Source: Xestospongia bergquistia
Taxonomy: Eukaryota > Porifera > Demospongiae > Haplosclerida > Petrosiidae
NCBI GenBank assembly: GCA_963965975.1
Contig: OZ014423.1
Coordinates: 1,798,001 to 1,862,000, forward strand
Reading direction: 5' to 3'
DNA: 64,000 nt
The notes under the pieces were generated by a model. The model had not been told where the DNA came from, searched no databases, and worked only from the letters and a program-made list of their open reading frames with translations. A program made the translations under genes and the position numbers. Shown here piece by piece: positions 20 through 61,997 of this stretch; position 1 is the first letter of the stretch, and every line of letters begins with the position of its first letter.

Positions 20-3000
20 TTTGTCAACATGATCAACAATGGCTCCTTTATCAAGTAATACTTGAAAAACAAACTGGTTATCACTCTTAGCAGCATAATG
101 AAGTGGAGTTTTGTTATCCTGTAATTATAATAAATGTACATGTTGTAATGTAGTCACTTACTTTGTCAACATGATCAACAATGGCTCCATTATCCAGTAA
201 TACCTGAACAACAGACTCGTTACCTCTTTCAGCAGCATAATGAAGTGGAGTTTTGTTATCCTGTAATTATAATAAATTTACATGTTGTAATGTAGTCACT
301 TACTTTGTCAACATGATCAACAATGGTTCCTTTATCAAGCAACACCTGAACAACAGATTTGTTACCTCTCTCAGCAGCATAATGAAGTGGAGTTTTGTTA
401 TCCTGTAATTATAATAAATGTACATGTTGTAATGTAGTCACTTACTTTGTCAATGTGATCAACAATGGCTCCATTATCAAGTAATACCTGAACAACAGTC
501 TTGTTACCTCTTTCAGCAGCATAATGAAGTGGAGTTTTGTTATCCTGTAATTATAATAAATGCACATATTGTAATGTAGTCACTTACTTTGTCAACATGA
601 TCAACAATGGCTCCTTTATCAAGTAATACTTGAAAAACAAACTGGTTATCACTCTTAGCAGCATAATGAAGTGGAGTTTTGTTATCCTGTAATTATAATA
701 AATGTTCATATTGTAATGTAATCACTTACTTTGTCAATACAATCAACACTGGCTCCTTTATCAAGTATTGCTAGAACAACAGAATGGTCACACTTTGCAG
801 CAGCAAAATGAAGTGGAGTTTTGTTATCCTTTAACAAACAGTATATGTATATCATGTATAATGTAGCATAGATATTAGAGAAAAGTAAAAGATTGGAAAT
901 TAGGCTTTATAGAAAAAGAGGCTAGATGAAACCATAATAATGATTACTTATTTTATTAATTGATGTGAAAACTTTAATTTTTCACAATAGCAAATAATAA
1001 AAACAATAAACCAATATAAATGTGCAAATACAATATAGAATCTCCATGTTAGTTAGTTATTTATGGATTCTCATAATGTTATACAAAAATATCCATTTTC
1101 AGGCATAATAAGTAGTTTTAATGGTTTTAAAATGGTATTTTTAACAGCATGTAACATTGCGTAAGTGTGGTTTAAGGCCACAATGTGAAAAAGCAGCCAT
1201 CTTTTGGTCACTCTATATGAAGTACTACCATGCCTAATAATAAATGTAACCACTCATCATAACCTCTTTACTTTAATCTATTATTCATTTATTTATTCAA
1301 TTACTTTGTCAAAAAAATCAATACTGGCCCCTTTATTAATAAGTGCTTGAAAACTATCCTGGTCATCTTTTTCAATAGCATATTGAAGTGGAGTTTTGTT
1401 ATCCTGTAATTATAATAAATATGCATGCTATAATGCAATTATTTACTTTGTCAACATGATCAACAATGGCTCCTTTATCAAGTAATACCTGAACAATAGA
1501 CTGGTTACCTCTCTCAGCAGCATAATGAAGGGGAGTTTTGTTATCCTGTAATTATAATAAATGTATATGTTGTAATGTAGTCACTTACTTTGTCGACATG
1601 ATCAACAATGGCTCCATTATCAAGTAATACTTGAACACTAGACCTGTTACCACTCTTAGCAGCATAATGAAGTGGAGTTTTGTTATCCTGTAATTATAAT
1701 AAATGTACATGTTGTAATGTAGTCACTTACTTTGTCAACATGATCAACAATGGTTCCATTATCAAGTAATACTTGAACACTAGACCTGTTACCACTCTTA
1801 GCAGCATAATGAAGTGGAGTTTTGTTGTCCTGTAATTATAATAAATGTACATGTTGTAATGTAGTCACTTACTTTGTCAACATGATCAACAATGGCTCCT
1901 TTATCAAGTAATACTTGAACAACAGACTCATTATCTCTCTCAGCAGCATAATGAAGTGGAGTTTTGTTATCCTGTCATTATAATAAATGTACATGCTGTA
2001 ATGTAGTCACTTACTTTGTCAACATGATCAACACTGGCTCCTTTATCAAGTATTGTTAGAACAACAGAATGGTCACATCTTGCAGCAGCAAAATGAAGTG
2101 GAGTTTTGTTATCCTTTAACAAACAGTATATGTATATCATGTATAATATAGCATAGATATTAGTGAAAGTAAAAAGATTGGAAATTAAGCTTTATAAGAA
2201 AATGAGGCTAGATGAAACCATAATAATGATTACTTATTTTATTAATTGATGTAAAAACTTTAATTTTTCACAATGGCAAATAATAAAAACAATAAACCAA
2301 TATAAATGTGCAAATACAATATAGAATCTCCATGTTAGTTAGTTATTTATGGATTCTCATAATGTTATACAAAAATATCCATTTTCAGGCATAATAAGTA
2401 GTTTTAATGGTTTTAAAATGGTATTTTTAACAGCATGTAACATTGCGTAAGTGTGGTTTAAGGCCACAATGTGAAAAAGCAGCCATCTTTTGGTCACTCT
2501 ATATGAAGTACTACCATGCCTAATAATAAATGTAACCACTCATCATAACCTCTTTACTTTAATCTATTATTCATTTATTTATTCAATTACTTTGTCAAAA
2601 AAATCAATACTGGCCCCTTTATTAATAAGTTCTTGAACACTAGCCTGGTCATCTTTTTCAATAGCATATTGAAGTGGAGTTTTGTTATCCTGTAATTATA
2701 ATAAATGAACATGTTGTAATGTAGTCACTTACTTTGTCAACATGATCAACAATGGCTCCATTATCAAGCAATAACTGAACAACAGATTTGTTACCTCTCA
2801 TAGCAGCATAATGAAGAGGAGTTTTGTTACCCTGTAAAAATAATAAATGCACATGTTGTAATGTAGTCACTTACTTTGTCAACACAATCAACACTGGCTC
2901 CTTTATCAAGTATTGTTAGAACAACAGAATGGTCACATCTTGCAGCAGCAAAATGAAGTGGAGTTTTGTTATTCTTTAACAAACAGTATATGTATATCAT

Positions 3001-5252
3001 GTATAATGTAGCATAGATATTAGAGAAAAGTAAAAAGATTGGAAATTAGGCTTTATAGAAAATGAGGCTAGATGAAACCATAATAATGATTACTTATTTT
3101 ATTAATTGATGTAAAAACTTTAATTTTTCACAATGGCAAATAATAAAAACAATAAACCAATATAAATGTGCAAATACAATATAGAATCTCCATGTTAGTT
3201 AGTTATTTATGGATTCTCATAATGTTATACAAAAATATCCATTTTCAGGCATAATAAGTAGTTTTAATGGTTTTAAAATGGTATTTTTAACAGCATGTAA
3301 CATTGCGTAAGTGTGGTTTAAGGCCACAATGTGAAATAGCAGTCATCTTTTGGTCACTCTATATGAAGTACTACCATGCCTAATAATAAATGTAACCACT
3401 CATCATAACCTCCCTGTAATTATAATAAATGTGCAAGCTATGATGTAGTTATTTACTTTGTCAACATGATCAACAATGGCTCCTTTATCAAGTAATACCT
3501 GAACAATAGACTGGTTACCACTCTTAGCAGCATAATGAAGTGGTGTTTTGTTATCCTGTAATTATAATAAATGTACATGTTATAATGTAGTCACTTACTT
3601 TGTCAACATGATCAACAATGGCTCCTTTATCAAGTAATACCTGAACAATAGACTGGTTACCTCTCTCAGCAGCATAATGAAGTGGAGTTTTGTTATCCTG
3701 TAATTATAATAAATGTACATGTTGTAATGTAGTCACTTACTTTGTCAACATGATCAACAATGGCTCCTTTATCAAGTAATACCTGAACAATAGACTGGTT
3801 ACCTCTCTCAGCAGCATAATGAAGTGGAGTTTTGTTATCCTGTAATTATAATAAATGTACATGTTGTAATGTAGTCACTTACTTTGTCAACATGATCAAC
3901 ACTGGCTCCTTTATCAAGTAATACTTGAACAACAGACTGGTCACATCTTGCAGCAGCATAATGAAGTGGAGTATTGTTATCCTTTAACAAACAGTATATG
4001 TATATCATGTATAATGTAGCATAGATATTAGAGAAAAGTAAAAAGATTGGAAATTAGGCCTTACAAGATAAAAAGGCTAGATGAGACCACACTGATTATT
4101 TATTGTATTAATTAGTGTGAAAACTTTAATTTTGCGCAATGGGAAAACAAGATGAGAAGTCAGAAGATGCTGAAAAGAGTAGCAAGGTAGAAAGTATTGT
4201 TAATGATAGTGTTTGTGTTATGCTGTATTTATTTAACTATACTAGTATATCACTTGTAATTCTCACTTAGAAATTTAGAAGTACAATGAAAATGGCAAAG
4301 AAGGAATTAAGATTCTTAGAGTATAGCTAATTACTCCTACAACTTTTAGATTCTTACATTGGATATATGTAATGCTTTGATTAATAATATTGTTTCATAA
4401 TTTTGACAAACAGCATGGCAATAAAAGACACAAAACAAATAATTAGAAAAACAAGTAATAAAACAATGAAAAACAAGAAATGATAATGCAAAATAGCAAG
4501 AAACAAGGTACGGATGACAGCATGCCATTATTCTGACATAAGTAGCTAATGTTATGAATAAGAACAATATATCATAATACATGTGCAAATGCAATATAGA
4601 ATCTCTATGTTAGCTACTTATTTATGGATTCTCATAATGTTATGCTAAAATCTCTATTTTCAGGCATAATGAGTAGTCTTAATGGCATTGAAAAACAGAG
4701 TAAGTATTTTTTAAAGCCTGTAACATTGTGTGATTTAAGGCCACAATGTGCAAAAGCAGCCATCTTTTGGTCACTCTATACGAAGTACTACCATGCCTAA
4801 TAATAAATGTAACCAAATCCATCACTCATTATAATCTCTTTACTTAATCTATTATTCATTTATTCAGTCAATTACTTTGTCAAAGAAATCAATACTGGCC
4901 CCTTTATTAATAAGTGCTTGAACACTAGCCCAGTCATCTTTTTGAATGGCATATTGAAGTGGAGTTTTGTTATCCTGTAATTATAATAAATATAAATGTC
5001 GTAATGTAGTCATTTACTTTGTCAACACAATCAATGCTGGCTCCTTTATCAAGTAATACTTGAACACTAACATGGTCACTCTTAACAGCATAATGAAGTG
5101 GTGTTTTGTTATCCTGTAATTATAATAAATGTACATGTTGTAATGTAGTCACCTACGTTGTCAACACAATCAACACTGGCTCCTTTATCAAGTAATGCTT
5201 GAACAAAAGATTGATTACCTCTCTCAATAGCATAATGAAGGAGGCTCTTGCC
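20..5252 (-). repeat. 142-bp tandem exon+intron units encoding ankyrin repeats
   Basis: Each unit is a 99-bp exon plus a 43-bp intron. Exon starts are spaced exactly 142 bp apart within blocks: 20, 162, 304, 446, 588, 730; then 1305, 1447, 1589, 1731, 1873, 2015; then 2591, 2733, 2875; then 3457, 3599, 3741, 3883; then 4876 and 5018, with 5157 at 139. The introns are nearly as conserved as the exons. This points to recent unequal duplication or gene conversion of the whole exon+intron unit rather than selection on protein alone. Two exons (5018-5113 and 5157-5252) are 96 bp. Confidence 0.95.
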
Positions 5253-6050
5253 CTATATGTGACAGTAAGATCTCAAGTATGTTTTAACAAGAATGACAGA
5301 TCTTGAAGACAAAGCATTGCTGAAGTATTTGTTGATATTATTCTTTCTTAAAATAATTATCATGATAATTCAAAAGTTTACACTTAATAAATCAATAAGT
5401 TTTTATAGATAGACAGATAATGATATGCAAATTTTATTCATGATGTCATCATGCGTGTATGGATTGTAAAGACGGCCATCCACTTTACTGGGATTTTTTT
5501 TACTGAATAGCTAACATACTATAGCATTATTGACATTGCTTAGGGTCTAAAGTTAATACAAACATACTATAGTTTTTTTGATAACATTTGTGAAGTTACA
5601 AGGGATTTTGAATGGTACAAAATTCTCTCTAGCTCATTCCTAACCAGATTTATAACACTGAGTTAGTGTTCATTCTCAATTCGAACAGAGTATATACATA
5701 ATAATAATAAATTTGTAATATAAAAAATAGTTATTTACTTTATAAACAAAATCAACAATGGCTCCTTTGTCTAGTAATGCTTTAACAATTGGTAGCCCAC
5801 TTGTCTGGATTGCATATAGAAGTGGAGTTTTGCTATCCTGTAATTATAATACAAGTACATGTTGTGATGTAGTTGCTCACATACGTTATCAAAAGAATCA
5901 ATAATGGCTCCTTTATTAAGAAGTGCTTGAACAATAAACTTATTAAACCTCTCCGCAGCATAATGAAGTGGAGTTTTATTGTCCTATAGTTAAAATAAAA
6001 AAGGTAATAGCAAGTATATTCCTTAATTTTAATGTGTGATTCTTAACAAA

Positions 6051-6087
<37 letters not shown>

Positions 6088-9000
6088 ATGTATATCATGG
6101 TTCAGATGTCTATATGTTTTATATAAACCTGCCAACAACAAAATTTGTAAAAGGTATCAGCTGAGGGCTGTAGACCTGAGAGAAAAATCTTTTACAAAAT
6201 TCTGAGTCAGCAGGTTTATATAACACATATAGATTGATGAACTAATGGTTCATACTAGCCTGCCACTATTACTCCATATATAAAATAGGACCTGGCCATT
6301 GAGCAATATAATTTTAAAATCTTAGGTTTATTTAACACATATGGACTCATCAATAATAACGGAACCAATAAAGCTCTGTACTATGTACAATGCTTATAAG
6401 CAATTCCCACTTTGTGTTAACTTTCATAAGAATTTTGTTTATTGGAAATCATGCTTGTTACACTGTACTACAGTAACTTACTTTGTCAACAGAATCAACA
6501 ATGGCTCCATTATCAAGTAATGCTTGAACTGTGACATGGCTACTTCCTTCAACAGCATAATGAAGTGAACTTTTAGTACCCTATAATTATAATTAATGTA
6601 AAATAATCATTCAACTATGGATAAAATGTCTATAATCATAACAGACTACTTTTTAAATTGAATTAGAAAAGCATAATGTCAACTTAACAAGATTTATTGG
6701 AGCCTACTTAATACCACATACATTATCATAGTACATCTATGTTGCAAGTTTAAAAAATTATAGGCACATTTGCTGCACTTATGTATATTATACTGTACAA
6801 GAAGATTCTAATGCATAACAAATAAATAAAAATTCTATAAAAACAAAGTAAGTGTGAGTCACTTCAACACAAAAAAATGCAAACAAGATAGTAAGGATGG
6901 CACTTTTATTGCCCCAACATAATAGCACGTACAAATACATGCAAAATGGACAAATATGTATGAATGATTGATGCCCACTATTTTGTTTGCATTCTTTGTA
7001 CAGAACTAACATTAACCATCCCCATATTTACTTTATTTGTTTTTTATGCACTCGTTTACTCATTTTTTTCTAAACAAAGCTTGTCATATAGAAAACTATA
7101 GCATAATGCAAAATGTCTTAGGCAAAGGAGTAGAAAGGTATGCAAGTGTTATAGCAGATGTGTCTTAACACAGACAAATTTGACAATAAAAAAGACTGGT
7201 AAACAACTTTCTTAGTCTTGTGGTAGACACTGCAATACTCACAATTTGTGACTTAATTTGTTATGTATCACATAAGTCACAACTTGTTCTGTGAAAATAA
7301 TGTGGAGAAAGAGGTGAACCAAATCTTATTACTGAAACAATTACTTTGGTTTTCTTAGCACTCAAGATGCATGACACTTACAAAAGTGGGTACTCCATTT
7401 AAATTATGTTGCCTCAGTAAAAATGGTTGCTACCATTTTTGGGTTTTGAGTTAATGTGAGAAGTAAGAAGAAAATCATTATTTAGCAAGTTCATACTAAC
7501 AAAAAATTCCAAAATTTGTGACTAAATCATTAATTAGGTATTGTTGTAGAAAGAATACTACATAGTATTAAATATTCTGATCAATCAGTAAGATATTTAA
7601 TGTTTGACCTCTATTGTATAATTAACCACCTCCATAACTAACATTGTATCAAAGGCCCACCCCTTACCTTATTGCACAGGAAGCATGTGTTTAAAGCAAT
7701 GTAGCAATCACTATAACCTAGGTCACCTCAGTATGAACACTGGCACAAGACAGCTTTTAAACAATAGTTAAACAGCAAATGGTCTTAATTAGAATGAGCT
7801 AGCAAAACTGAGCTACTACTATGTAATAAATGTGAAGCATAAAATATAAAAGGTGTAAACTTTCAGGAATATGCATTCAATTATTTTCTGCCTGGTACGC
7901 AAAGAGTGCAAGACAGTCCTAAGATTGTCTTAGACCATATGATATGTGTGTGTGTGTATAAGGGTATGTTTGTTTTCATTGTTTTATTGTATTGTTGTAT
8001 GCAAGTAATGATTCCAAGGAAAAAAATTCACTCCTGCATATTGAATGCTGATGCATAGAGTAACCAATGGTTAATTTACCAGGAGCACTATGATGTTGGG
8101 CATGACTATTTAAAGCTTTAGCATTTTTAAACCACACCAGTATTACAGCCTCTGTAAATTCTATAGTCTTTAGTATTATTTAATTTATGGTATCAAAAAA
8201 AATTTAGGAATTTTTTTTGTTTTGTTTTATATCCTTCTCAGTGGATAATAACTCACTTTAAAATAGTTAGGATCTGCTCCCTTTTCTAGTAATTTAGTCA
8301 CTTTAGAAGGGTCCCCACTACCAATTGCTCTCCATAACATCTCATTCTACATAAGAACAAACATCCTATAGTACTATATATATTGTAGATAAGTAAATAA
8401 AAACTTTTTACGAAAAATGGAGTATATGTAAGGATGGCTAATGTCAGTCTTTTACAAAGAAAACAAACAAGATAGTAAGGATTGAGTTAGATCATTCCTA
8501 CATAATAACACAGACAAAGAAAGAATGCACCAATATATTATATACTATATGTTATTGCAGTCAGTTAACAACCTTTTATTGTATGTTCCTGTGGTATTAA
8601 TTATATCTGGTGACACAACTGCCATCACTACTATCTTGTTTGTATTTTCCACAAAAGACTGATATTAACAATCCCTACATCTTTTGCTTTTTATTTACTT
8701 GTTAGTTGAACTTTTTAAACTAAGTGTTCAGACATGTAGCCACAGAGAAAGGTAGCATCAAATGCAAAGCATGTATTTCTGAAGGTTTATATGTAATTGG
8801 TAGATAGTAAAACTATTTTATTTACTATAGATTTATTTGAACAAGTATGCATAATATATAAAGTATAGGACACTCATAATAAAACTATGTTTAGAGATTG
8901 CTTGATTAGTAAGAATATTAAAATTGAAATGCTAGAACCATTCCCACATTGAATTAATTTTTAAAGATAAATGTTAATTATGTACAAGTAGATCATTTAT

Positions 9001-12000
9001 TTAGAATTATTTCATTATTAGATACTATTGATGGACATGCATGGGTATGTGTGTGCCAACATACTGGCTGAGACACCTAGTATTGTTACTATAATATTAG
9101 ACTCTAGTTGTTGCATATTTTGATATAATAACACTATTAACAATTCACAATAAAAGAAAACACGATGGCTCAGTAATGATCCTGAGTCTTCTTTAAAAAG
9201 GAGCAAAAAAGGAAAATAGTGTATATTTCTCAATTCATAATAGCAATATTAAGAGGAGTGAGCAATTTTAACCTCATGGCACCACACTATATATTTTAAA
9301 TATTTGTTGTGGCTATAATATGCCAATGTCATGTCAAGTTGGCATACATCTAAGATATATTCACTACTGGAATCACTATTTTGTTCCTAAAGTGCTCAAA
9401 ATGTGAGGAAGAAGTACATAGTTTATCAAAAATCGTGTTATATCTGAGAAAATGGTGGAAAATGCTGTTTTTTGGGGGAGGGAAAGGGGGAAAAGATTAC
9501 TGAGTTGCTGTTAGCACTTGATACAAAAAACACAGCAGCACAAATGAACAAATTCAGCTTTTGGCCAATTTTGGACTATCTGGGCCATCCTTACATAATA
9601 GACATTGCTACTGCTTGTCTGATAATAAGGTTATAGACAATTAAGCTATATCTGAATTTGAAAAGGGTAGTTATTACTTTATAGAGTGCATTAAATATAA
9701 GTCCAAAAAAATAGACAAGAATAATAAGTACTTTATTAATATTTTTATTTATTTACATACCAATTCTTTCTGTGATTCATCAGTCATCAGAATTGCTGAT
9801 TTGCTCTTAACGTATTTTTGAGGGCCTCCAATCTATAAAATTATTAGAAATGATAACTAAAAATTTTATAAAACTAATAGCATTATGTTAAAAGTACACA
9901 TTGAGGTACTTACCCTAGTTTCTGACTCTGCTCTTGTCATTGATTCATTATCAATTTGTACTAATAAAGAGCAATGAAAAAGAAATGATATATGATGAAT
10001 TTATATAACATTCAAAGATTGTCACAAACTAGCTAGTACACTGTCACTAAAATTATGATGTGGGGCCAAAAGTAATCCATGTAGACAACTAAAAATCAAT
10101 TTCCAAGGGCCTTTTTTAGTCCACATGTACTAAAAACAATCCTACAACATAACATGTAATGTAATAGGATTTTGTTATAATCAAAGCAAAGGAAACAACA
10201 AGAAGAACTATATATCATATATTATAGTGGAAGAATTAGATATAACAATAGAAAAAGGTGAAAGCAACAAAAACTATTGTAGCCACAACAGCAGTTTTGC
10301 TATGATTAAAGACATTTATAATTTAGTAGTCAGAACAGTAGGTTCTAAACTGCATTAAAGTGCTCTTAATACAAATACATATGTATGTAAAATGTCATTC
10401 TTAGGTACATTACAACTATTAAAGCATAGGAGACACAGAGTGTATGAGCAATGAAATCATATAATGAGCACTTTGAATATGTGAGAATTAAAACCAAATT
10501 AAATGACTGCGAGGAAATTTTTGAATAGAAACATTTGAACATGTATAGTTGCTATGTGCTCATTTTGTATGGGACGACTACCAAATTAGTATCTAAAAAA
10601 ACAATATTGATGTTCCTGGAAAATAAACTTGGTAAATAATCCTGAACAAATAGCAAGCATTTGTTTGAATAAGTGAAGTTTTATAAAATTAGGTCACATA
10701 ATATATAAATCGTGCAAAAGGCTACATTTTGGCAATATATTCATTGTCTGGCTTTATCCACTACTAGTGCTACCTAAAAATATATGTCTCAAATATTATT
10801 ATATTACTAACTTTCATATGCAGTTTCTAACGAATCTCTCCATCCCTAAACAAAACGATAAATCCTAATATCATTATAATCATAAAAATATTTACCATTG
10901 ACTCTTCTTGTCCAATGTGAGGTAAGACTACAGTCACTCCAATTGACTCTAATTCTTCCAAGATAACAGGGTCAGTCAAATCTCTCAATACAATAGATGT
11001 TACACAAGGAAGAGATACATATGTAATAGCAATACAGCCTGGAGTAATGCTTGTCATCACTGTGTGTCGAGACCATGGAAACATTCCTGAGTATTTGTCA
11101 CGCCATTGTTGAACACTTTTGGTTGGCCAAGGATCTTTCAATTTAAAACGAAATTGCTGTAAACAGGCTGGTGGTTTGGGACGAGGGTTCCTGACTCCAT
11201 CTTTAATAAAAGCCTTTTGTAGTTGTAGTAAAGTGTCACAAAATGTATGATAATCTCGATCATACTCCTCCATCATAGTTACAATATTTGCATCTCGTTG
11301 TAGCAGAGATTTGACAATGTACTGTAGAGTGCCGTAATTCCAAAAACTTAACAAACCCTGAGACATTAAAAAAAGAATAGTATCACTTCCTACAGAGAGA
11401 CTGGGAGTGTTGACTTTGTCTAGGTACAATTTGGTTAGTTCTTGACAACCATTTAATAAAAGTGAAACATAGAACTTGATTTCATCTGGATCCACCTTCT
11501 GGATGGACTTGCGTACTTCTAGCAGACATTGATGAAATGAAAGCTCTAATTTGCCCACCTTATCTGCTACTTTGGCTAGTAAAATTAGAAATTTACTTAT
11601 TAAACAACTTTTAGAAAGAACTAAATTAACTTACCTTCCAACTCTCCTATAAAAGTCATTAGACGTTCATTATCAGTTGAAGCAAAAGTAAGTTGTGAAG
11701 AGTTTGGTAGTAACTGATTGTCATCAGTTGTGTTTGACAGGTTAGCTTGAACAAATGACATAAAACTTTTCTCTAATTTCATCACCATTTCTTGAAGACA
11801 CTCATTTTTCTTCATTTCTGTTAGGAGGTCAGCAAAAAGAGAAGGATTATTTTGAATAGCTGTTGATACTTCCTGAAGTAAAATGTCAGCATTTCCAATG
11901 CTACGTGCTGTTTCCTGAGATAATAGACCAACAGCTGTTAGATTACTGGTAAGAGATTCTTGAGTGTCCTTCTCTGATAGCAATTCACACAGTTCAACAC

Positions 12001-12397
12001 TATGCTTCATCAAGACTTCTTCTGGGAGAGAAGGTCGTGCTGACCTGCCTTCAGATTCTGGCTTTAATTGCCATTCTTTAGCAAGATTTTTAGCAGCACA
12101 TCTGGTGGCAACACTTCCTAGACTTTCAAGAGCATCAACAAACACTTGACAATGTTGTTGTAGATCAGTCTTTGACTCCATATACTCTATCCCAGCAAGA
12201 AACTCACCAACAATTTTGTCATAGTTATTGGATAACATAACAGGTTTTGTTATTAGATGTGCTTCAAACAATTTCTTGGCAAAGTCTTCTAGAGAGCCTT
12301 TCAATGTCTCAAAGAGTTTGGCATATTGAGAATTAAAGGTAGCCACCAATGATGTCTTATATGTAGCTACATCATCTACATCAAGATCGGTAGCCAT
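20..12397 (-). CDS. Death-fold-like / ankyrin-array protein (gene A), 3' end beyond window
   Basis: The start ATG is at 12397. Exons that join in frame: 11635-12397, 10896-11575, 10812-10845, 9914-9960, 9761-9832, 8257-8346, then 25 ankyrin exons from 6482-6580 down to 20-118. This gives about 1,385 residues in the window. Residues 1-254 are helical and look like two successive death-fold (CARD/DED-like) bundles. Residues 255-481 form a second module ending in a hydrophobic segment (GCIAITYVSLP). A short linker follows, then a cap repeat (GDPSKVTKLLEKGADPNY) and 33-residue ankyrin repeats (DNKTPLHYAA ... GAIVDHVDK). All ankyrin introns are phase 0, so exons can be gained or lost without breaking the frame. 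The N-terminal half is paralogous to the gene at 59844-62787. The family is not one I can name. A sensor or adaptor role is inferred from death-fold plus ankyrin architecture. The fold assignment is by pattern only. Confidence 0.8.
829..4875 (-). repeat. Long-intron module repeated between ankyrin exon blocks
   Basis: Long introns at 829-1304, 2114-2590, 2974-3456 and 3982-4875 are copies of one another. They share the same start beside the upstream acceptor and the same internal sequence around 1071-1253, 2357-2539 and 3217-3396. The 2974-3456 copy is truncated and joins directly to a short-intron sequence near 3413. The 3982-4875 copy carries extra sequence. Together with the flanking exons they form a higher-order repeat of about 1,286 bp (1305 to 2591). 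The identical 60-codon frame in these introns is not a gene. Confidence 0.85.
6057..6083. repeat. (TG)n microsatellite
   Basis: A run of about 13 TG dinucleotides lies in the intron between the ankyrin exons at 5885-5983 and 6482-6580. No role is evident. Confidence 0.9.
6581..8256 (-). other. Long intron of gene A between cap repeat and ankyrin array
   Basis: This intron of about 1.7 kb separates the degenerate cap repeat (8257-8346) from the first regular ankyrin exon. No coding signal is seen. Its part from about 7590 to the cap exon, and on to about 8780, reappears in diverged form at about 13780-14680, which marks it as one end of a local tandem duplication. Confidence 0.6.
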
Positions 12398-12918
12398 ATT
12401 TGTAATACTCCTCCCCTCAAGAGGTGGTTCCTGAATACACGAGTTTAAAAATTGTTTGTTTTAATATTTATGTCTCTAGATAATTAATAATTTTCCACGG
12501 CCAAATGCATCAAAAAAATGTGGGGGGTCATGGCCCCACTGCTTCCTCCGCCTATTAGTTTAAGTGACCGATCCATAAAATTCTTTGACTTGAGAATGCT
12601 AGTATTTCCTAAAGAGAGGTCAATAGATAAAAGTGATGGAATATTATTTGATTGAATTATTTATTACATCATAGTATCTTGTTAGTTTTTATGTACAGGA
12701 TGATTTGGGTTCCACTTTTATCTTCCTACCAATTTGGTCACAGCAAAATGTCAATTTGTGAATGTACCTAACTAGCTATTAGTGCAACAATTTGAGTAGT
12801 AACAATCTACACATACTAACAAAGATGTGATAATCAATAAGGTTGGTTGTGATCACAGTATACATAGTATGGTTTTTACATCATATAATAGTAATTGTAC
12901 TTTGGACATTAAAATGTT

Positions 12919-13644
12919 TTATAGCAAATCTTGGATTTGTATGGTTTTCTTGACAGCATCTGAGAACCTTTCATTAAAACGAAACCAAATTGAAGTTGAA
13001 GATCCTGTCCTTGTCTCTTTAATAGAATCAGGTCTTGTCTCTGACTTGACTGGCTGTCCAAAAAAATCTCACTGAAACTGAAAAGACTCTTTATTATAAT
13101 ATGTACTTGATAAATTAGTTACAATCAAAATATATGTATCTAGTGATGAGTACCTCTGTTCTGTCTTTGTTCTCAACAGTAGTTACTTTTAATTTGGAAG
13201 AAGACCTATACAAATAAACAAACAAGTTACTAAAAATCATTCTTAATTTATTTTACTAATGACTCAGTAACAGTAAAGTGATATATTATTTTAATATTGA
13301 AATTTGGAGAATTGAGAGAAGTTAAAGGCTTCAATCAATCACACCCTATATTGTAGCACTTGCAGTATAAATAATTCAAATTTGGTTGCCATCTATGGAG
13401 TACACAGATTAAATGTTTCAATATATAGATACATCACATAAAATAAAACATTAAAAGAAACATAGATACATACATAACACATGTCCAGTCTAAATATAAT
13501 TGTCAAACATATTTTATGCACCAAGTGAACTAGTCTATATATTTTAAATTCAATAGATATCTTATAACATAACACAATACCTGTTAGCAGAGATGTTGGC
13601 ACTTTCATGTTTGACTTCACCTTTCACTTTAGCTAGTTCAATCT
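12919..13644 (-). pseudogene. Duplicated CTF18 3'-terminal exons (dead copy)
   Basis: Three segments (13583-13644, about 13155-13206, 12919-13077) match the last three exons of the CTF18 gene at 16499-16560, 16097-16148 and 15863-16021. They include the conserved C-terminal motif WFRFNE and the terminal IQDLL. In the last exon the third codon is TGA where the intact gene has AGG, so the copy cannot make the C-terminus. Flanking non-coding sequence is shared too: about 12350-13690 matches 15380-16600. This is therefore genomic duplication, not retrocopying. Confidence 0.85.
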
Positions 13645-14328
13645 AAATACAAAATATCATTTATAAAAAGATATTTAGATTATTTGATTTTTTGCAACAC
13701 ATTTCAATGAACAATCAAGGTTACACCTTACACATTGCTATAGGATCCCTGATAAAGAATTTACCAATTGTTTACACAATCAATCTCCATTGTATAATTA
13801 ACCATCTCCATAACTAACATTGTATCAAAGGCATTGCCCTTTATCCTATTGTATAGGAGGAATGGTTTTTAAAGCAATGTAGCAATCACTATAACCTAGG
13901 TCTAGTATGAACACTAGCACAAGACAGTTTTTAAAAAAAAACACTTGGATAGAAAATGTTAATTAGATTGAGCTAGAAAAACTGAGCTACTACATGTAAT
14001 AACTGTGAAGTATTCATACAAAGGTGTATATTTTCAGAATGCATTGAAATATTTCCTGGCTGGCACACGAAGAGCGTTGAAGGTCTTAAGAGTATGTTTG
14101 TTTTCATGTTTTATCTTATTGTTGTATGCAAATAATAATTCCAAACCAAAAAAATAATTGCATATTGACTGCTGAATCATATAACAAAAAATAGTTAATT
14201 TACCAGGAGCACTACTTCTTACCAGTATTACAGCCTCTGTAAACTCTTTAGTCTTAATTTATAGTCTCAAAATAATCTTAGGAATTTTTATTTTGTTCCA
14301 TATCCTTCTCTATTGGATAATTACTCAC

Positions 14329-15395
14329 TTCACGGTAGTTAGGATTTGCTCCCTTTCTTAATAATTTAGTCACTTTAGAAGGGTCCTCACTACTAATTGC
14401 ACTCCATAATATGTCATCCTACATAAGAACAAACATCCTGTATTGTAGATAAGAAAATTATAAAAAATTCTAAAAAATGGAGTATAGGTAAGGTGATACA
14501 CTACCATCACTACTATTTTGTTTGTATTTGCCATTAAAAACTGATATTTACTATCCCTATATTTACTACATTTTTAAATTTTTATTTACTTGTTTGTTAA
14601 ACCTTTTAAATTAAACTAAGTGTTCAGACATATAGCCACAGAGAAAGGTAGTGTGAAATACAAGCATGACGTTCTGAGTAGTAGATAGTATAGTTTTGCA
14701 TAACAGTCTTATAATTGCTGTTTATAAAGAAGAAACTAGCTGGTTAACCTGTAAGGTTCTATAGCTTAGGAAGTCAAATGCATTGTATAGAACCAACACT
14801 CCTATTCAAAATGTATGAGCTATGTAGTATGAATAAGTAATATGCTTATCAAGTTAAATGCTTTAGCTTTAAAACAAGCTGATGGCTTTTACAAGACCTG
14901 GTCAACTTTGAAGTATGTATGTTTAAGTACCATCATTGATTTTGGAGTATAATCCTCTGTTTAGAAGTAACAAAATTTACTACCAAGCCAAGTTGGAAAC
15001 TCTAACTAATCAGTATGACACTCGGCTGAATAAAAAAGTAGGATGTGGGGCTAACCAAGGTGTAACACTTTAACAATAGTCTTGCTGTGTAAGAAATACC
15101 ATTTCTTGTACTGCATGTACAATGATAACCATTCCTTTGTTAGCTAAAGCTAATAAGAAAATCTTGACACACATGTATCCAAAAAACAGATCCAACATAT
15201 CTAACACAACAATTGAAATGAAGCAATCTGATTGGTCAACATGGTACAAATCAGTTATACACCTCTGTCTCGTTAGCTACGTGTTTACACATCTCTGGCC
15301 TATGGCCATCAGTATATAAATGATGTATCTACCTCGTTTCGAGTATCTCCTAATGATTGATCTGTATCTGAGGGCCCACTAAGATTGGTAGCCAT
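14329..15395 (-). pseudogene. Stripped-down copy of gene A 5' end (gene B)
   Basis: Exon 15333-15395 starts ATG and encodes 21 residues beginning MATNLSGPSD. Exon 14329-14418 encodes a cap repeat almost identical to that of gene A (EDPSKVTKLLRKGANPNYRE). The two join in phase 0. The death-fold exons that should lie between them are missing, apparently removed by a deletion. The next exon-like sequence downstream, the duplicated CTF18 exon 13583-13644, is also phase 0. A fused transcript is therefore possible, running through two CTF18 exons to the TGA in the third. It is most likely non-functional, but a short chimeric peptide cannot be excluded. Confidence 0.6.
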
Positions 15396-15862
15396 ATTTT
15401 GTGGTTGATTTATCAAAGTTATTTTAGTCACTGATAATCTCTCCTCAAGAGGTGGTTCATGAATACACATCTTTAAACAATGGTAAAGGAGGTAGGGAAG
15501 GGAAATACATGTATGCCCCAAGGATTATATGGAGGTCAATAGATAATAGTGATGGTCCTGATGGAATATTATTTGATTGAATTATTTATTAGATCATAGC
15601 ATCTTGTTAGTTTTTGTGTACAGGATGATATGGGTTCCACTTTTATCTTCCTACCAATTTGGTCACAGCAAAGTGTCAATTTGTGAATGTACCTAACAGC
15701 CTTGTTAAACTAGCTATATAGTAGTGCAATAATTTCAGTAGTAAAAATCTAACAAAGATGTGATAATCACTATCATGATACTAAGGTTGGTTGTGATCAC
15801 AGTATACATAGTATGGTTTTTACATCATATAATAGTAATTGTACTTTGCACATTAAAATGTT

Positions 15863-18800
15863 TTATAGTAAATCTTGGATTCGTATGGATTTCTTGACAG
15901 CATCTGAGAATCCTTCATTAAAACGAAACCAAATTGAAGTTGAAGATCCTGTCCTTGTCTCTTTAATAGAATCAGGTCTTGTCTCTGACTTAACTGGCTG
16001 ACCAAAAAAATCCCTCTGAAACTGAAAAGACTCTTTATTATAATATGTACTCAATAAATTAGTTACAATCAAATACATGTATCTAGTGATGAGTACCTCT
16101 GTTCTGTCTTTGTTCTCAACAGTAGTTACTTTTAATTTAGAAGAAGACCTATACAAACAAATAAACAAGTTATTAAACATCAGTCTTAATTTATTTTACT
16201 ATTACTCAGTAACAGTAAAGTAATATATGTTATTTTAATATTGAAATTTGGAGAATTGAGAGACGTTAATAACAATTGCAATATGAAATAATTTAATTTG
16301 ACTGCCCTCTATGAAGTACACAGGTTAAATGTAGCAACAGGAACATCACATACAATAAAACATAACAACAAACAAACATAGGTATATATATATAATACAT
16401 GCCTAGCCTAATTAGAATTGTCTAGAATATTTTATGTACCAAGTGAACTAATCTATATACTTTAAATTCGAAAGATATTTCATAACATAACACAATACCT
16501 GTTAGCAGAGATGTAGACATTTTCATGTTTAACTTCACCTTTCACTTTAGCTAGTTCAATCTAAATACAAACAACATTTATAGAAAGATATTTAGATTAT
16601 TGTTTAACAACTAAAAAGTGTAAAACCTGTAAGTTTGCTCATTACATACTCACTAATCATTGATAATTTAAAGTGGTTTGGCTATCAAAACATACCAGAT
16701 GTTCAGTACCTCCCCACAAATACTATAGTTTGTATATAACTTACTTCTCTAGCTAATAGCTGCTTTGTAGCATACTGAAGTTGTCTCTTCTGTAAAAGAC
16801 CAGAATAATGACAAAGTTCTTCCAAATCACTAAAAGATATATTATTAAAACAATAATATCATAATAAGTATTGATTTACGGTTCCAAGAAGTAAGTATAT
16901 TGTCCATCAATAGTTCTGTCTTGTCTATAAGAGATGTTATAATAAGTCATAATTTGAACAACATTATTTAATAGTTCTTTCTCCCATCTTGTATATAACT
17001 GTATATTAACCTAAAAACAAATAAAATTAAGTAATCATTAATACAATGTAAAATATGTATTAATAGTTAACTAAAGAACATTGAAACAATAAAGGATGGA
17101 ATAATAAGTTATTATCATCAGTTAGTAGTTATCATCTTACATTCTGTCTTACAATATTCAATAGCAAGTTAAGTATACTGTTGTTACTACTAACAAACTT
17201 GTATTATATTAAACTCACTGGTCTAAGATTAGGAGTAATGATGTTCAGAAGAAGAGGTACAAAGTAAACAGCTGAGGAGAGTGGGTCAATATTTTGTCGT
17301 ACTATAGGGTTAGTATCAGACATCATTTGAGATAACAACTGTTGATATCTTTGAAACTTTTGGTTGTTCTGAAGAAAGAGAAAATGTGTGTAGTATCTTA
17401 TCATAAATAACTAATAGTATTTGTATATGTTAGAACACCTTTATACTGGATTTTGAACCAACCATCACAACTGCAATGTTTGAAAGCTATATACAATATG
17501 AAATCTTAGAATTTACTGGTTTCTTTTTAGTATAGTCTGTAATGTTCCTGCTAGGGGTTTGATTTATTCACTTCATTTTAAGCAATCTGATTGATTGGTC
17601 AAGCATACATCCACATAGTTAACAAACAGAATTATATATTATTGTTTATATCACTCATAAATGAAAAAAAGTGGGATAAGCCAGGGTATACTGGTGATCC
17701 CACCCACCAGACTTGCTGGTGTTGACTGTGAACCAAACAAGATAAATGTTAGGATACTACTGTATAGGCCAAAACTACATCTGCTCTTTAAATACTATTC
17801 ATTATGGCAAGGACCTGTGGGATCATCAAGTTGCCATAACTCTAAAGTACATTCATACTATCACTTCCTTTACACATGATAGTCTTCTATTAATGTGTAT
17901 GTGTTGTACAAACTACCAGTACATGCTAGTGTGTTGTTAATGTAGACATTTATATAGTGTACTAGTTGTGTCATGTGATATAACCTATGAATGCTATCTA
18001 GTTAGTTCACATTGACATATCCCACAAATGGTTCACACATTAAACTACTCATAAGTCGAGAATAAATCACACTAAATAATCCAAAAAAGCTACAGACCTT
18101 TTTGTACGCTATTAAAGTCAACACCAGCAAGTCTGGTGGGTGGGGTCACCAGTATTCCCTGGCTTATCCCACTTTTATAATCTCACAGAAATGAATAAAC
18201 AACTGATCAAGCAATATTAACAGTAGTAGTTATATGGTTTAACAGACTACATTAGTACCAGCTGTAAGCTTGAAGCAGGCAATAAAAGCATTATAATGAG
18301 AGCTATAATTAAAAAAACTAATCTACTCATTTAAAGCTACTAAGTTACTTCTTGAGTTCTTACTTCAAATTGTGTATGTGGATATTGTACACGATGTCCA
18401 GTAGGTCCAGCATATAAGAAATGAAATACTATACTAACATATGGTAAATAGGACATCAAATAGTACTCCTGTGTTGATTGTATCATATTTAGTAATGTCT
18501 CTTGAAAACTGATCCAGTTTTGTGTCTCTGATACCTATAAAATAATATCTTCTTACTCATTTAGACAGATAAAATTACAACTAAACCACATGAGGTATTT
18601 ACAGCTATAATATTCATAGTCTAATGGGAAAATTTGGAAGATACTGATCTTATGGGCTGATTGGTGGTAATTATATTTGGCTGTATTAAGCAACTCAGTA
18701 GTTGTTGAAGCAGTCAGTAATTTCTATAGAATAATACATTGCTGCCATCACAGTTAAAAAGATATGGACCACATAATCTAGTCTAGTCATAGAACTAGTA

Positions 18801-22960: not shown

Positions 22961-23969
22961 TTATTTTTTTCTATCCTTCATCTCATAATCATTGTTATTG
23001 TCATCATCAGCAGGTTCATGTAGGCATTTACAGCACATCTTCTTTACTAAGTACAATAGCCCTTCTCTCATAAGGTGGTTGGCATAAAAGAAGAGATGAA
23101 TTAATGGCATATAGACAAGTGGAATAGCAATTGCAAAGACAGATGCAGTACCAGGAGAGTTTTCATAATCAATTTGAGGATAAATATAAGTTCCATTATT
23201 AAAGGGATTGCCTCCTTCACCAGCATAGTATAGACCAGTGAAAACTGCATATACACAGGAAATGCCAACTGAGTAAATTACATGGTACAGGCGAACTGGT
23301 ATTCGGGACACCCAAATATCAATAAAAGGTACAAAGCCATTGACAAGGTGGAGAGCAATGTTAAGGTGTCCGTAAAGGTCTAAATCAGACCTTTGATTGT
23401 TACCAAAGAGAGGCCAATAAATAATAGTAATGGCCACAGCCAGCTCTGCTCCAGTTGTGAACAATAACCAATGTATTTTTTCATACCATTTAATTGAATC
23501 GTTTGTTACATCACAACATCCTTTTGCCTTTTGACTGCAGGTTGATTTGGGTTCAGTTTTTTGTTTCCCACAGATTTTGTTGCAACAACTAGGTGCCAAC
23601 TGCTGAACATATCTAATAGTGACAGATATACTGCTCCATGTTATGTAGATTGTCAATGCAAGAAACCCCCAATTGGTCAAGAAGACAAAAAACCATCCTT
23701 TTCTTACTGCCAGGGCCCAAAAAAGGTACATTAGAAAGTAAGGCACCAAGATCCACCGATAGAGAATATAGATCCATTGAAACCTACTTTTCTGTGGAAG
23801 CCACTGTGGAAGAGAAGCCAAGGTATTGTGCATTGTCTGTTACGCATATTGAACAACTTACTGGTGTGTATGAAAAAGCTTTCCAATTATGATGGCACAG
23901 ACAGAACCTGGAGATGTGAAACTCCCAGCAAAGAACTTTCAAACAGCGACCTTCGTGATTTTCCACCAT
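22961..23969 (-). CDS. Rolling-stone-like multi-pass membrane protein (paralogue 1)
   Basis: Two exons: 23862-23969 (36 codons from MVENHEG; an in-frame ATG at 24011 would add 14 residues) and 22961-23803 (280 codons plus stop), joined in phase 0. Exon 1 carries the family N-terminus CWEFHISRFCLCHHNWKAF. Exon 2 begins WLPQ and contains about six hydrophobic membrane segments, plus motifs repeated in all four paralogues here: WVSRIPVRLYH, FTGLYYAG, NGTYIYPQIDY and REGLLYLVKK. A cytosolic Cys-rich, acidic tail ends it. Rolling stone is known from Drosophila myoblast fusion; the molecular activity of the family is unsettled. The gene lies directly downstream of CTF18 on the same strand. Confidence 0.85.
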
Positions 23970-24093
23970 TATATTGTGTACATAGATCCTAGACCGTGAC
24001 AAGCCAGCCACTCCTATTTTTTCTGGAGGAGGAGGGGCCGGTCACGCCTCCTCACTAGTAGATAATCATGGGCGGAGGAAGCAAAAGATGCCT

Positions 24094-24110
24094 GGGGGGG
24101 GGGGGGGGGG
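24094..24110. repeat. Run of 17 G
   Basis: A perfect G17 homopolymer lies in the intergenic DNA upstream of paralogue 1, just after GGGCGGAGGAAGC. A related sequence occurs in reverse orientation near 12520-12555 (a G6 tract, then GGCCCCACTGCTTCCTCCGCC). The pair may be ends of the same degraded repeat. The exact length is unreliable in any assembly. Confidence 0.8.
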
Positions 24111-24239
24111 CGATCATTTTACTACCCACCCAACTATGTATGAAATTTTGTTGCTGTCATCAAAATGTTTATGCATACATATACACTTAATTTTCTTTTG
24201 AAGTAAATTAATTGTAAACACAGGTATAGTTATATTGAT

Positions 24240-25066
24240 TAAAATATGCCAAAATAGTTCTTTCTTCTGTCATTCACTTCAACAAATTGTTTAGCTATAT
24301 GGAGTTCATTAATTGTGTCTACACCTACTCCTACAATGGTTTTCACAGCATTTATCTCATAATTTATACTATGAACATACACGGGCCTAGAAAGAAACAG
24401 ACATGATAATACATACAAATTCTTACTACTTTACCAATGACCAGCAAAAATTAACCATGGAATCACTTCTCTATTCACTATAGACAATTGTTTTTGGAGC
24501 CACATATACTGGGGAGATCCCACGGCAAAGTTATGTTCAGTACTCATTACAATAACATGAATATTATCAATAACAAAATTGTACCTATATTAATGAATAC
24601 ATTAGAGTCAAGATAGATTATACCACTGCTTACCAATCCTGATCTGGTCTTGGTTTTGGCATAAGGAATCTTTTGTTATAGGGAACACCACACTTGCCTC
24701 CAGAATCAGTTCCTTTATAGAAATAACTGGAAAGACAGGATTCAAAACCAGTTTAGCTAGTTCAATTAGTTACACTGACTTGGGAAAGTCCTTTCGTGAT
24801 TACCGATACATACCATATATGGTGCTCGAGTCAATATTGGTTGAATTAAATCAAAGAATTAATCCCACTACAAAAAGAGAGAATGAAAGTGAGTTTCATA
24901 TTGACTTACCACTCCAACATAGCCTCTAGCATAGCTTATATCTCCAATATGTAATACAAGATCTATCATAGGCATGTCTGATTCAACGAGGTGAGTTGTT
25001 TGAAGAGAAGGAACTTGTGAATAGATTGGTTGAAGACTACCATCATTTTGGGCTTCACCCATATCT
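24240..25066 (-). pseudogene. Purple acid phosphatase fragment (metallophosphoesterase), disabled
   Basis: Exons read from about 25066 downward: DMGEAQNDGS ... LHIGDISYARGY (the family's GDMG and GDxxY metal-binding blocks), then a block with IGNHER, then TDSGGKCGVP, then an exon ending WLIFAGHWPVY. All resemble plant/animal purple acid phosphatases. Three faults show. An in-frame TAA lies in the exon at about 24813-24868 (the family has a Glu/Gln codon after WD). The region coding for the N-terminal Ig-like part is absent upstream. After GHWPVY the frame runs 34 unrelated residues to a stop at 24240, so the downstream GHxH metal site is missing. It cannot be an active phosphatase as written. 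Confidence 0.85.
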
Positions 25067-25614
25067 TGAGAGAGAGAGTTTGAATAGATCGTAAAGAATC
25101 ACATTTTAATTCAAAATGTTATAATTTTTATTCAGGTATTTGGGTCAGATTTAGGTGGTACTTTAAATGAATAAACTGGACTCTACCTATCACCAAATTG
25201 GCAATTATACACACAATTAGTGTTATTAAGTGATCTGAACTATTAAGGTGTATAGTTGATCATACTAATCATATTCACATGTATTTTGTAAGCACAAATG
25301 TAGTTGAGACTATTACAAGAGTAGGTGTGGTGACTCTGCCCAGAAAAAACGAAAATGTAATAAAAGAAGATGGACTAAACATAACCCACTATCACTTAGT
25401 ATTAAGATATATCTCTATTTCTACAATATTAAGTACATACTGTTATTAGTATAGTAGGATCTCTGGTAATACAATAATATACTAACATATTAGTAAGACT
25501 CTATATTAAGTAACATTAATATTAAGGGTGCCCTTAATATAGAATGAATAAGTAAAAGATTGGGCAATTATCAGTTCATGGAACTACATTTGGTATATAA
25601 TAAGGTTTGTTTAC

Positions 25615-26356: not shown

Positions 26357-26449
26357 TTTCCACGTGTATTACCACGCCCAATAAAATAATAAGCTCCACC
26401 TTTTAATTATCTTTATGAGCCCCACCTCTCAATACCAGACATTGTCAAG

Positions 26450-31980: not shown

Positions 31981-32099
31981 CCTACCTGTCAGTACTCCAT
32001 GTCCAATTAATTTAGTAGTTTTAATAAACACATAAACAGTCTATACTAATATACAGTAAGTAACACATAGTAATAGAAGAACATACTAAGGCAAACTTT

Positions 32100-33070: not shown

Positions 33071-33322
33071 TAAAATTTACTATTGTTCAGTAATTGATAC
33101 ACATACTTAAATGTGTCATTACAATTAATATTATGTAGTGGATGTTAGGAAGTCCATACTTTGCCATTTTATGTGGCCTGCATAAGTTCAAAATATGTAT
33201 ATACTATATGGTACAATAGGTACAGCTGCTTTTATACTTAAATAGGTGTATCAGATCACTAGTAGTGTAATCATTTTTATGGAATGTAAATATAGTTACT
33301 CTGAGTGTCTTCATTTCTTGAA

Positions 33323-59843: not shown

Positions 59844-60231
59844 TTGCTAAAGATGTCGTCTTCCTCTGCTCCTAAAGCCACAAAGAGTTACAGAAAAGCT
59901 GTTGTTGATCTTCTGGACACTAATTTCAGTAAACTTAATTCAGTATTAGAAGGATGTTTGGAAGTATTTGCTAGAAAGGCATTTGAAGCTAAATTAATAT
60001 CTGAGCAAGTAATGAAAGATAAAAGTTTTATTGGTATGATTAGTGAGTTTAAAGCTGGAATGGAGTGGTGTAGGAATACGCTGGAGATACAAAGTCGTTG
60101 TACTGATTTTATTGAAATTCTTGAAAGCCTTGGTGGACCAGCAAAAACTGCTGGGCAGGATTTATATGTAAAACTATTAATTTTGGATGGTAGGTATAGG
60201 TAATTGTGATTTCATATAATTATATATAATT

Positions 60232-60262
<31 letters not shown>

Positions 60263-61997
60263 ATTATTTTATTTTATATATTTATATAATAGAAAAACAT
60301 GAAGTATTTTCTGTGGAACCACATCCATGTGAAGGAACTCAAAAAGGTAAGTTTAAACAGCAATGCAATCCACTACTTCTATATTCACTTTACAATGTAT
60401 AGTCAAACAAAATTGTTATTGGAAAAATTAATGGTAATATCTTTGCTATAAGTTTAATGGAGTTAGCTAATATTGAAAACTTAAATATTTTATAGAAGCT
60501 ATGGAGCTGCTAGAAGTGTAAATGTTCTAGAATTACAAGCTTTTATTAGTCACATTCAACAATATAGAGCTTGTAGTAAATTAAATAAAATTCATTGATA
60601 GCAATGTATGTGGTGGTCATTGCATGTGCGTTAATGTAATTTTATTCTGCTATTGATTTTATACTTGTGCATACATATATATATATATATATAGCAATTA
60701 ATAAAAAGTTATTTTTAAATTATTTTATGTCAAAGCTGGCATACTTCAGCCATTAATTTTTATTCATTGCAGTTGTCAATTTATTGCACATGAGAATAGA
60801 ACAAGTACCAGAGTTAGCTGTCATAGCTGCTGGTCTAAAGAAGAAGTTTCGACAACTTCTTATTATTGTTAAAAAATCTTTAGCAAATGTAGATATCAGT
60901 GATGTGAAGGTAATAATTAGTTCAACTTTAGTTGACAACTCCTGTAGAGTATCTGATACAATTCGACTTTATTTGTACAAATTAAGGAAGTTTGAAAAAG
61001 TTGAAGAGATCTTAGATTTTCTCATTGAATATCGTTTCATTGGCTATCTCAATTATGGTTTATTAAAGGAGATTAGTAACTTAACAAATGATGAAAATAT
61101 TTCTAAAGCCTTTAATAGTTATGAAACAGAACACTTTTGTAACCTGTTAAAATCATCAAAGTTCAATCTTCTAATGCAAGTATTTTGTGAATATCCTGAT
61201 CTCTCTCCTACTACTGCTATTGGACTACCAGAAATTATGTTTCAACTTGAAGATTCTTGGAAAAATGAGTCTATGGAAACATGGCAAAGATATATGGAAA
61301 TAAATTTCCCTTGGTCTGGATCATTGGCTGTTAAAGAAGTATCTGCTAGTTGTATTCTAATCACATATGTCTGCTACCCAGCCAAGTATAATGACATTCT
61401 CAAAGATCTTTGTAATCCTGACATTTTGGAAAGGCTCAAATCTGATGAAATAAGTGTTCATATACTGGAAAGTAAGAACAATGACTATATGACCTTCATT
61501 TAATGTGTGTTCATTATATAGGTGAGACTACTGTTGCTCTGCAACATAGTGTTGCCTATGATTTTGAAGTTGATAACATACAAATGGTATTTATCTCAAA
61601 GTTATAGTGTTAATTACTCTAACTAATTTTAATGATTGTTATAATTACACTAAAAGTAAACTTGCTAAAGCACAAATGAAAAGTAAGTTGAATTGATCAT
61701 GGCTAAAAAAATTATTGAAATACAACATTTGATGGATTTAGCAACAATAGTCCTTAAATGTAGGGTGATTCAGAAAAAAGTATATTATGTATTCCTTATC
61801 ATAGCCTAAAATCTCACTTATACCTTTAATTTTTGAGTGTTTTCAAAATCGTTAAGACTCCTAGTTTGGTTAGAAAGCATACACTAAAATAGAAGACCTA
61901 CAAGTAGACTGAGGACCAAATTGCTCTTGCTTCAGATTCTTAGTTCTAGAAGTGCTCTCTAATATGTAAAGATTATTATACATATATTATATATATA

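Follow-up and report, generated by a model that had tools for sequence, protein, structure and literature searches.

A sponge ankyrin-repeat gene with a death-effector-like head and an array of exon-sized units altered by recombination

Two described systems resemble the gene reported here. For the sponge Amphimedon, the consulted portion of Kaur et al. 2021 (PMC8195603) lists 357 NCOA6-clade TRADD-N proteins; in the majority of the architectures described there, one to three death-like domains and TRADD-N are followed by a C-terminal part that varies, ankyrin repeats forming one of its most frequent kinds. For fungi, the consulted portions of three further papers (PMC1805685, PMC2873952 and PMC4986451) describe repeat receptors, including ankyrin (ANK) ones, that undergo concerted evolution within and between loci together with diversifying selection at surface codons. 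The NLRs of Podospora carry WD repeats (HNWD) or ANK and TPR repeats, with five selected positions reported in the ANK repeats of one locus, and high internal conservation is given for 0.8% of metazoan repeats (PMC4986451, in the part consulted). Here we analyse a 64,000-nucleotide stretch of the Xestospongia bergquistia genome (hereafter the window; C13:1798001-1862000 of an assembly of 146.5 Mb in 21 contigs), whose minus strand bears a gene with a head that is partly death-effector-domain-like (DED-like) and a long array of ankyrin exons. We think it rather probable that the product of this gene acts in recognition and signalling in the cytoplasm and belongs to the death-fold/TRADD-N/ankyrin proteins, a type expanded in sponges, its array evolving by exchange and the cores of its repeats being kept diverse by selection.

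A splice model of the gene was made in silico from the genome sequence alone, with the neighbouring 10-kb piece included; negative window coordinates denote DNA left of the window edge. The model comprises 47 exons, from 12397 to -3184, and gives one frame of 1,895 amino acids with a single, terminal stop. All 46 acceptors are AG and 45 of the 46 donors are GT. An earlier note on this DNA, made from the letters of the window, had described positions 20 to 12397; the gene runs about 3.2 kb past the left edge, where eleven more array exons, one 90-bp ankyrin exon (exon 43), three non-array ankyrin exons (exons 44-46) and a last exon of three codons, stop included, were found. The 25 ankyrin exons that the note had counted inside the window (6580 to 20, minus strand) were all recovered, 23 of 99 bp and two of 96 bp, each following AG, preceding GT and in phase 0. 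Overall, the array spans exons 7-42, which are 36 similar ankyrin exons (34 of 99 bp and two of 96 bp), all phase 0. Pfam Ank was above cut-off in both ankyrin segments scanned (264 and 312 aa), so that the protein has the C-terminal ankyrin repeats of the sponge death-like/TRADD-N/ankyrin type, and the best match of the repeats among solved structures was an ankyrin-1 chain.

Within the array, the repeating unit is one 99-bp phase-0 exon plus a 43-bp intron, 142 bp in all; the 142-bp tandem units seen earlier were borne out by TRF, which detects 142-bp arrays independently. Strict units number 25 with the part left of the window included, or 26 with the unit whose donor is broken; the two 96-bp exons and the 90-bp exons were left out of the unit counts and of the repeat tree. 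For the duplication comparisons, units and exons are numbered 9-35 after an array-exon list that is separate from the splice-model numbering. Units 22 and 26 agree at each of their 142 nt, as do units 23 and 27; pair 24/28 differs at 4 nt and pair 9/10 at 1 nt. A three-unit run reappears at a distance of four units (568 bp), its successive units differing from the first run at 0, 0 and 4 of 142 nt. Four copies of a long-intron block (829-1304, 2114-2590, 2974-3456 and one left of the window) are 98-99% identical over their last 420 bp, the long introns upstream of exons 12, 15, 21 and 34 showing just 4-8 differences in about 420 positions. Exon 34 itself differs from exons 12, 15 and 21 at 16-19 of 99 nt (11-13 amino-acid changes), and unit 34 differs from the adjoining unit 35 at 3 of 142 positions. 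Exon 34 is a chimera, with an upstream intron of the 12/15/21 type and codons 11-21 of the next unit, and an intron of one type before an exon nearly that of neighbour 35 is the trace expected of an exchange inside an exon. The array is young and recombining. Identical units, block copies and the chimeric exon thus uphold the note's picture of frame-neutral exon-and-intron units altered by recombination; its phrase "actively duplicating" stands in so far as identical and near-identical units make the duplications look recent, and duplication may, by inference, still be under way.

Near-identical units are hard to assemble, and exon 38 (-876 to -974) has AT rather than GT as its donor; if this exon were skipped, the frame would be kept, because all array exons are phase 0. 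Both facts would fit a decaying or misassembled repeat, either a pseudogene or a copy number inflated or collapsed in assembly. The 1,895-codon frame without an internal stop over 47 exons, the spread of variants, long introns and a chimeric exon through the array, and the presence of the same kind of array at other loci make this quite improbable.

We then compared the array with others in the same genome, above all with an array of 10 units at C13:2010255-2011675, some 210 kb distant and hereafter called the second array. Its consensus intron and that of the array studied here agree at 43 of 43 positions, although the exon-2 modules of the two genes are only 29% identical, and near-shared units were likewise found between loci whose exon-2 modules are 28-29% identical. 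A constraint on short introns was rejected as the cause of the identical introns: three other short introns match the array intron at 28 of 45, 31 of 50 and 33 of 59 columns, shuffles match it at a mean of 0.66 and a maximum of 0.78, and the exception, with 39 of 47 columns, is an older array intron. When nearest neighbours were sought outside the variable core described below, 32 of the 35 units of the two arrays were closest solely to their own locus; homogenisation is therefore mostly local and exchange between loci rarer. Taken together, the unit, intron and tree comparisons show concerted evolution within and between loci.

The trees point to exchange of heads as well. In the exon-2 tree, in which the program warns of long branches meeting at this gene, the gene and its copy group with 14 chromosome-10/chromosome-11 genes (100/100), and a further gene, gene B, lies with the second-array gene in the other clade. 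In the repeat tree, which has few columns and many unresolved forks, the repeats of this gene are mixed with those of gene B and of the second array (chromosome 13) and stand apart from the chromosome-10 repeats (100/99). On these groupings the gene appears to be a mosaic, its head going with chromosome-10 genes and its array with its chromosome-13 neighbours.

Variation between the repeats is concentrated in codons 11-20, where the mean pairwise difference among the 25 strict units is 0.252, against 0.061 in the other codons. Replacement (pN) and silent (pS) differences were obtained by Nei-Gojobori counting. In this array codons 11-20 have a pN of 0.252 and a pS of 0.253, the rest 0.053 and 0.090, and the intron interior 0.089; in the second array the core has a pN of 0.364 and a pS of 0.185, the other codons 0.028 and 0.101, and the intron 0.037. 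Codons 1-3, which form the hairpin, hardly vary in this array, and codons 11 and 12 match sites that are randomised in designed ankyrin proteins. When the 30-nt window of highest variability was sought, it was found to start at column 31 in this array and at column 30 in the second, a result that none of 10,000 column permutations reached in either. Among the 45 unit pairs of the second array, 23 differ at no more than 4 of the 112 nt that flank the core, and 13 of those 23 differ at 10 or more nt of the 30-nt core; for the 26 units of this gene, 83 of 325 pairs have at most 4 differences outside the core, 8 of them with at least 10 inside it. The reverse pattern, a similar core between differing flanks, was found in 0 of 325 and 0 of 45 pairs, respectively. 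By these counts, flanks and introns have been homogenised and cores have not. We infer that the diversity of the cores is maintained by selection and not by mutation.

A targeted mechanism could also be imagined, in which local hypermutation or templated cassette conversion would diversify the ten-codon cores and homology arms would be provided by the intron and the conserved codons. It would fit the nearly identical starting column of the most variable window in the two arrays and the silent changes that are raised inside the core too; selection combined with conversion yields the same picture, no search for a template store or a mutator having been made, and we consider a targeted mechanism the least probable of the explanations considered here, marginally behind decay or misassembly. 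As a separate observation, six of the eleven 99-bp exons listed for the second array (C13:2010539-2011391) share a nearly invariant DHVYGYGVQP-type core, unusual for an ankyrin repeat, and these are interleaved with quite different cores.

The 481-aa head matched no Pfam family at E values up to 1. Its two large exons were compared with domains of the same genome. The earlier note had proposed a death-fold-like N-terminus beside an unnamed module. Death-fold similarity is indeed present; it lies in that module, exon 2, and not in the N-terminal bundle encoded by exon 1. Exon 2 has 53 matches in the genome, 44 of them at E < 1e-4. Its N-terminal half aligns with the DEDs of the same genome with an hhalign probability of 87% and a score of 36.0, which none of 100 column shuffles equalled (maximum 18.5); the reference was built from 8 of the 9 genome DED hits over cut-off, the ninth, of about half length, being left out. 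The C-terminal half scored 14.0 against the same reference, with 2 of 100 shuffles as good. Pfam DED is also the commonest weak match in an alignment of 31 exon-2 members (12 of 31, best E 0.0011, under cut-off), and 7 of the 37 places in a genome-wide DED search fall in exon-2 places. A DED-like region of the death superfamily thus lies N-terminal to the repeats, and the combination of death fold and ankyrin repeats that the note had linked to innate immune and apoptosis proteins is supported by this DED-like half together with the Pfam Ank matches.

The second half of exon 2 is weakly TRADD-N-like. Against the TRADD-like_N regions of two ankyrin frames on contig C14 it scored 23.2, a value reached by 0 of 60 shuffles at an hhalign probability of only 9.7%, and the whole exon gave a probability of 34%, unshuffled. 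TRADD-like_N was matched by 1 of the 31 exon-2 members (E 0.009), and the strand-helix order of a low-confidence structure model weakly fits an RRM-like part. The reading of exon 2 as a plain NCOA6 TRADD-N domain was retained as a weak one at most, shuffles scoring as high in 2 of 60 cases for the C-terminal half and 5 of 60 for the whole exon. Contig C14 itself holds very long unbroken ankyrin frames of up to 2,625 aa (e.g. 1258744-1263894), some of them equal in length to frames with a weak TRADD-like_N hit (C14:959205, 1,720 aa; C14:3759794, 1,369 aa); the two C14 pieces examined run from a TRADD-like_N region into ankyrin repeats, which looks like an intron-poor form of the same architecture.

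Exon 1 encodes a different and more widespread domain, matching at least 149 places in the genome and giving no credible family match in Pfam or PDB. Three death-superfamily assignments were rejected for it, by sequence only, the AlphaFold model of exon 1 being too poor for a judgement of fold. As a DED it scored 11.8, with 24 of 100 column shuffles as high; the best 150 Death hits have no start of any of the 149 places within 150 bp; and the 34 CARD hits have none within 300 bp, a comparison covering 95 of the 149 places, since the remaining 54 lie on C8, C13 and C14, contigs for which the CARD list gives no hit. The exon-1 domain does occur upstream of such domains. On the same strand, 22 of the 149 places are followed at a distance of 0.2-3 kb by an exon-2 place from the 44 better ones, and 18 are followed in the same interval by one of the best 150 Death hits, the upstream control being 0 in both cases; seen from the other side, half of the better exon-2 places (22 of 44) have an exon-1 place upstream and the other half do not. 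By this arrangement exon 1 appears to be an upstream partner of death-type domains and not such a domain itself.

Several results, in addition to the AT donor of exon 38, weigh against the recognition reading. Both AlphaFold models are poor (mean predicted local distance difference test score, pLDDT, 45.0 and 57.5). The gene's own exon 2 has no Pfam DED match, the best member of the alignment staying below cut-off, and genome searches with Pfam NCOA6_TRADD-N and TRADD-like_N gave no match at exon-2 places. Core pN equals core pS in this array, and an excess of pN is seen solely in the second array and barely so (bootstrap 2.5% bound 0.009); because silent and replacement changes are equal, the excess in the core of this gene reads as old cores kept distinct and not as plain pN > pS. 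Three chromosome-10 arrays (C10a, C10b and C10c) have a core pN of 0.102, 0.120 and 0.172 against 0.073, 0.085 and 0.107 elsewhere, their intron figures going unused as those introns differ by insertions and deletions, and gene B (five units) shows 0.277 in the core, 0.157 in the flanks and 0.181 in the intron, a value inflated by one of the five introns being of non-standard length. Neither the chromosome-10 arrays nor gene B thus has a clear concentration of change in the core, and a diversification of codons 11-20 throughout the family was rejected, as it was seen in 2 of the 6 arrays examined.

The equality of pN and pS in this core and the four arrays of six without clear core concentration would suit an ordinary ankyrin scaffold or adaptor under neutral concerted evolution, in which codons 11-20 preserve old subtype differences maintained by structural or binding roles of single repeats and no recognition takes place; per-repeat exons are, moreover, found in other ankyrin genes. 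Such a scaffold sits less well with the near-identical flanks and introns around very different cores in the second array, with units that seem to pass between loci, which should erase old subtype differences, and with a death-fold-like head in a large family. We regard it as unlikely, though as the strongest of the competing explanations.

If the recognition reading holds, the exon-1 adaptor domain and the DED-like/TRADD-N-like module would form a signalling head and the approximately 40 ankyrin repeats a ligand-binding body. The array would evolve as a coding minisatellite with one phase-0 exon and its 43-bp intron as the unit; the number and order of repeats would be altered, with the frame kept, by gene conversion and unequal exchange that involve both the array itself and those of neighbouring paralogues, and selection would keep the ten-codon surface stretch (codons 11-20) of each repeat diverse. 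Binding of a ligand to the array may then let the head assemble and trigger a death-fold response, the ligand possibly being non-self, either microbial or from another individual.

The features of the gene and its paralogous head are collected in Table 1. The note had placed a further copy of the unnamed module at 59.8-62.8 kb; it does recur there (31% identity), not alone, however, as the exon-1 bundle recurs with it (34%). No phase-0 ankyrin exon of 90-105 bp was found on the plus strand at 61401-74000, about 12.5 kb after this head; applied as a control to the minus strand of the window's first 9 kb, for which the model gives 26 ankyrin exons, the same scan detected 24 starts. The head of the gene itself is present again in inverted orientation at 72042-73552 (window coordinates), with 94.6% identity over 1,511 bp; the copied segment reaches from 6 bp ahead of the start codon to 3 bp beyond the donor of exon 2. 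In the 6.4 kb that follow this copy, too, the scan detected no phase-0 ankyrin exon.

Table 1. Features of the ankyrin gene and of its paralogous head (window coordinates)
Feature	Position	Strand	Basis or remark
Exon 1	11635..12397	-	start codon and 254-aa helical region; residues ~7-116 are the genome-wide domain
Exon 2	10896..11575	-	226-aa module with 53 genome matches
DED-like half of exon 2	11289..11537	-	profile-profile match to same-genome DEDs
TRADD-N-like (RRM-like) part of exon 2, weak	10983..11156	-	hhalign and strand-helix order of low-confidence model
Exon 3, linker	10812..10845	-	in-silico splice model
Exon 4, linker	9914..9960	-	in-silico splice model
Exon 5, linker	9761..9832	-	in-silico splice model
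Exon 6, ankyrin repeat of 90 bp, degenerate and perhaps a cap	8257..8346	-	splice model
Exons 7-12, six ankyrin exons of greater divergence (99, 99, 99, 96, 96, 99 bp)	4876..6580	-	
Exons 13-31, nineteen ankyrin exons of 99 bp, the majority with their introns in units of 142 bp	20..3981	-	
Array continuation left of the window	to exon 42 at -1975	-	
Long intron, 476 bp	829..1304	-	one of four block copies
Three recurring units	304..686, again at 118 to -264	-	
Paralogous head, exon-1-like and exon-2-like frames	59853..61503	+	

Elsewhere in the window, duplicated remnants lie upstream of the gene (12634-13684 with 15559-16601; 7609-8773 with 13785-14668), and they include, near 14.3 kb, what seems to be exon 6, the degenerate ankyrin exon, in a second copy, which would fit a head set beside or over an older gene. 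A segmental tandem duplication with several open frames pairs 39796-43052 with 47774-51031 (98.1% over 3,258 bp) and, in its second part, 43072-45569 with 51468-53960 (94.5% over 2,528 bp). Four related-looking minus-strand frames of 269-292 aa with hydrophobic stretches, judged by eye, occupy 22961-38117, two of them matching at 74.6% in DNA. A 27- and 84-bp tandem repeat with a proline-rich open frame on the minus strand was found at 51165-51479, a 55-bp tandem repeat of 4.5 copies (93% matches) at 58536-58781, and an inverted repeat with 97-nt arms, 90% complementary and 8 nt apart, at 56262-56463.

Sponges tell self from non-self and live with dense microbial communities, and their diverse recognition has to be made without antibodies. 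An array of interchangeable exons with one diverse stretch per repeat offers a concrete locus for typing in graft-rejection and microbiome work. With the Amphimedon proteins the gene shares a DED-like half-module (here in exon 2), an ankyrin body and membership of a large family, and may share the TRADD-N part; relative to the consulted portion of PMC8195603, it differs in its exon-modular array, the exchange of units between loci and the variable ten-codon core, and its TRADD-N assignment is weak. Like the repeats of fungal NLRs, its repeats are highly similar and exchanged within and between loci. Unlike in those receptors, each repeat has its own exon and the intron lies inside the recombining unit, and no STAND NTPase (NACHT/NB-ARC) was found by Pfam in the 481-aa head or the two ankyrin segments (264 and 312 aa) scanned, so that filing the protein as an NLR is unsupported even though the regime seems to work like that of the fungal receptors. 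Polymorphism between individuals has been shown in fungi, whereas here there is one assembly; and where selected sites in fungal ANK repeats lie mostly in the inner helices and the hairpin/loop, in the portions of the sources consulted, the hairpin codons vary little here.

The zinc-finger array of PRDM9 is, in the part of the literature consulted, likewise a coding minisatellite with positive selection at contact residues, and differs in consisting of DNA-binding zinc fingers that act in meiosis. We know of no introns inside its repeat unit. Ankyrin-1 and other long ankyrin proteins have the same repeat fold as this array, and the repeats of ankyrin-1 are largely one exon each; in proteins of that type each repeat has diverged by itself, and they are not known to carry a death-effector-like head in front of their repeats. 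Among papers surveyed by title and start of abstract, with partial coverage, none reported an exon-modular diversifying ankyrin array in an animal. We suggest, tentatively and with well under even confidence, that the gene may be to animals what the repeat receptors of allorecognition and immunity are to fungi: a death-effector-headed sponge ankyrin receptor whose specificity would be rebuilt in the germ line by exchange of exon-sized units within and between loci, heads and arrays being swapped as well. Introns would in that case act as a homology platform for the repeats, and with exons of phase 0 the frame would survive any repeat number and the loss of a damaged exon by skipping. It would then be an animal instance of the diversification regime documented for fungal NLRs. 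The architecture is already known from Amphimedon and the evolutionary mode from fungi; the gene would bring the two together in an animal, in a form whose recombining unit includes the intron and whose heads are exchanged as well.

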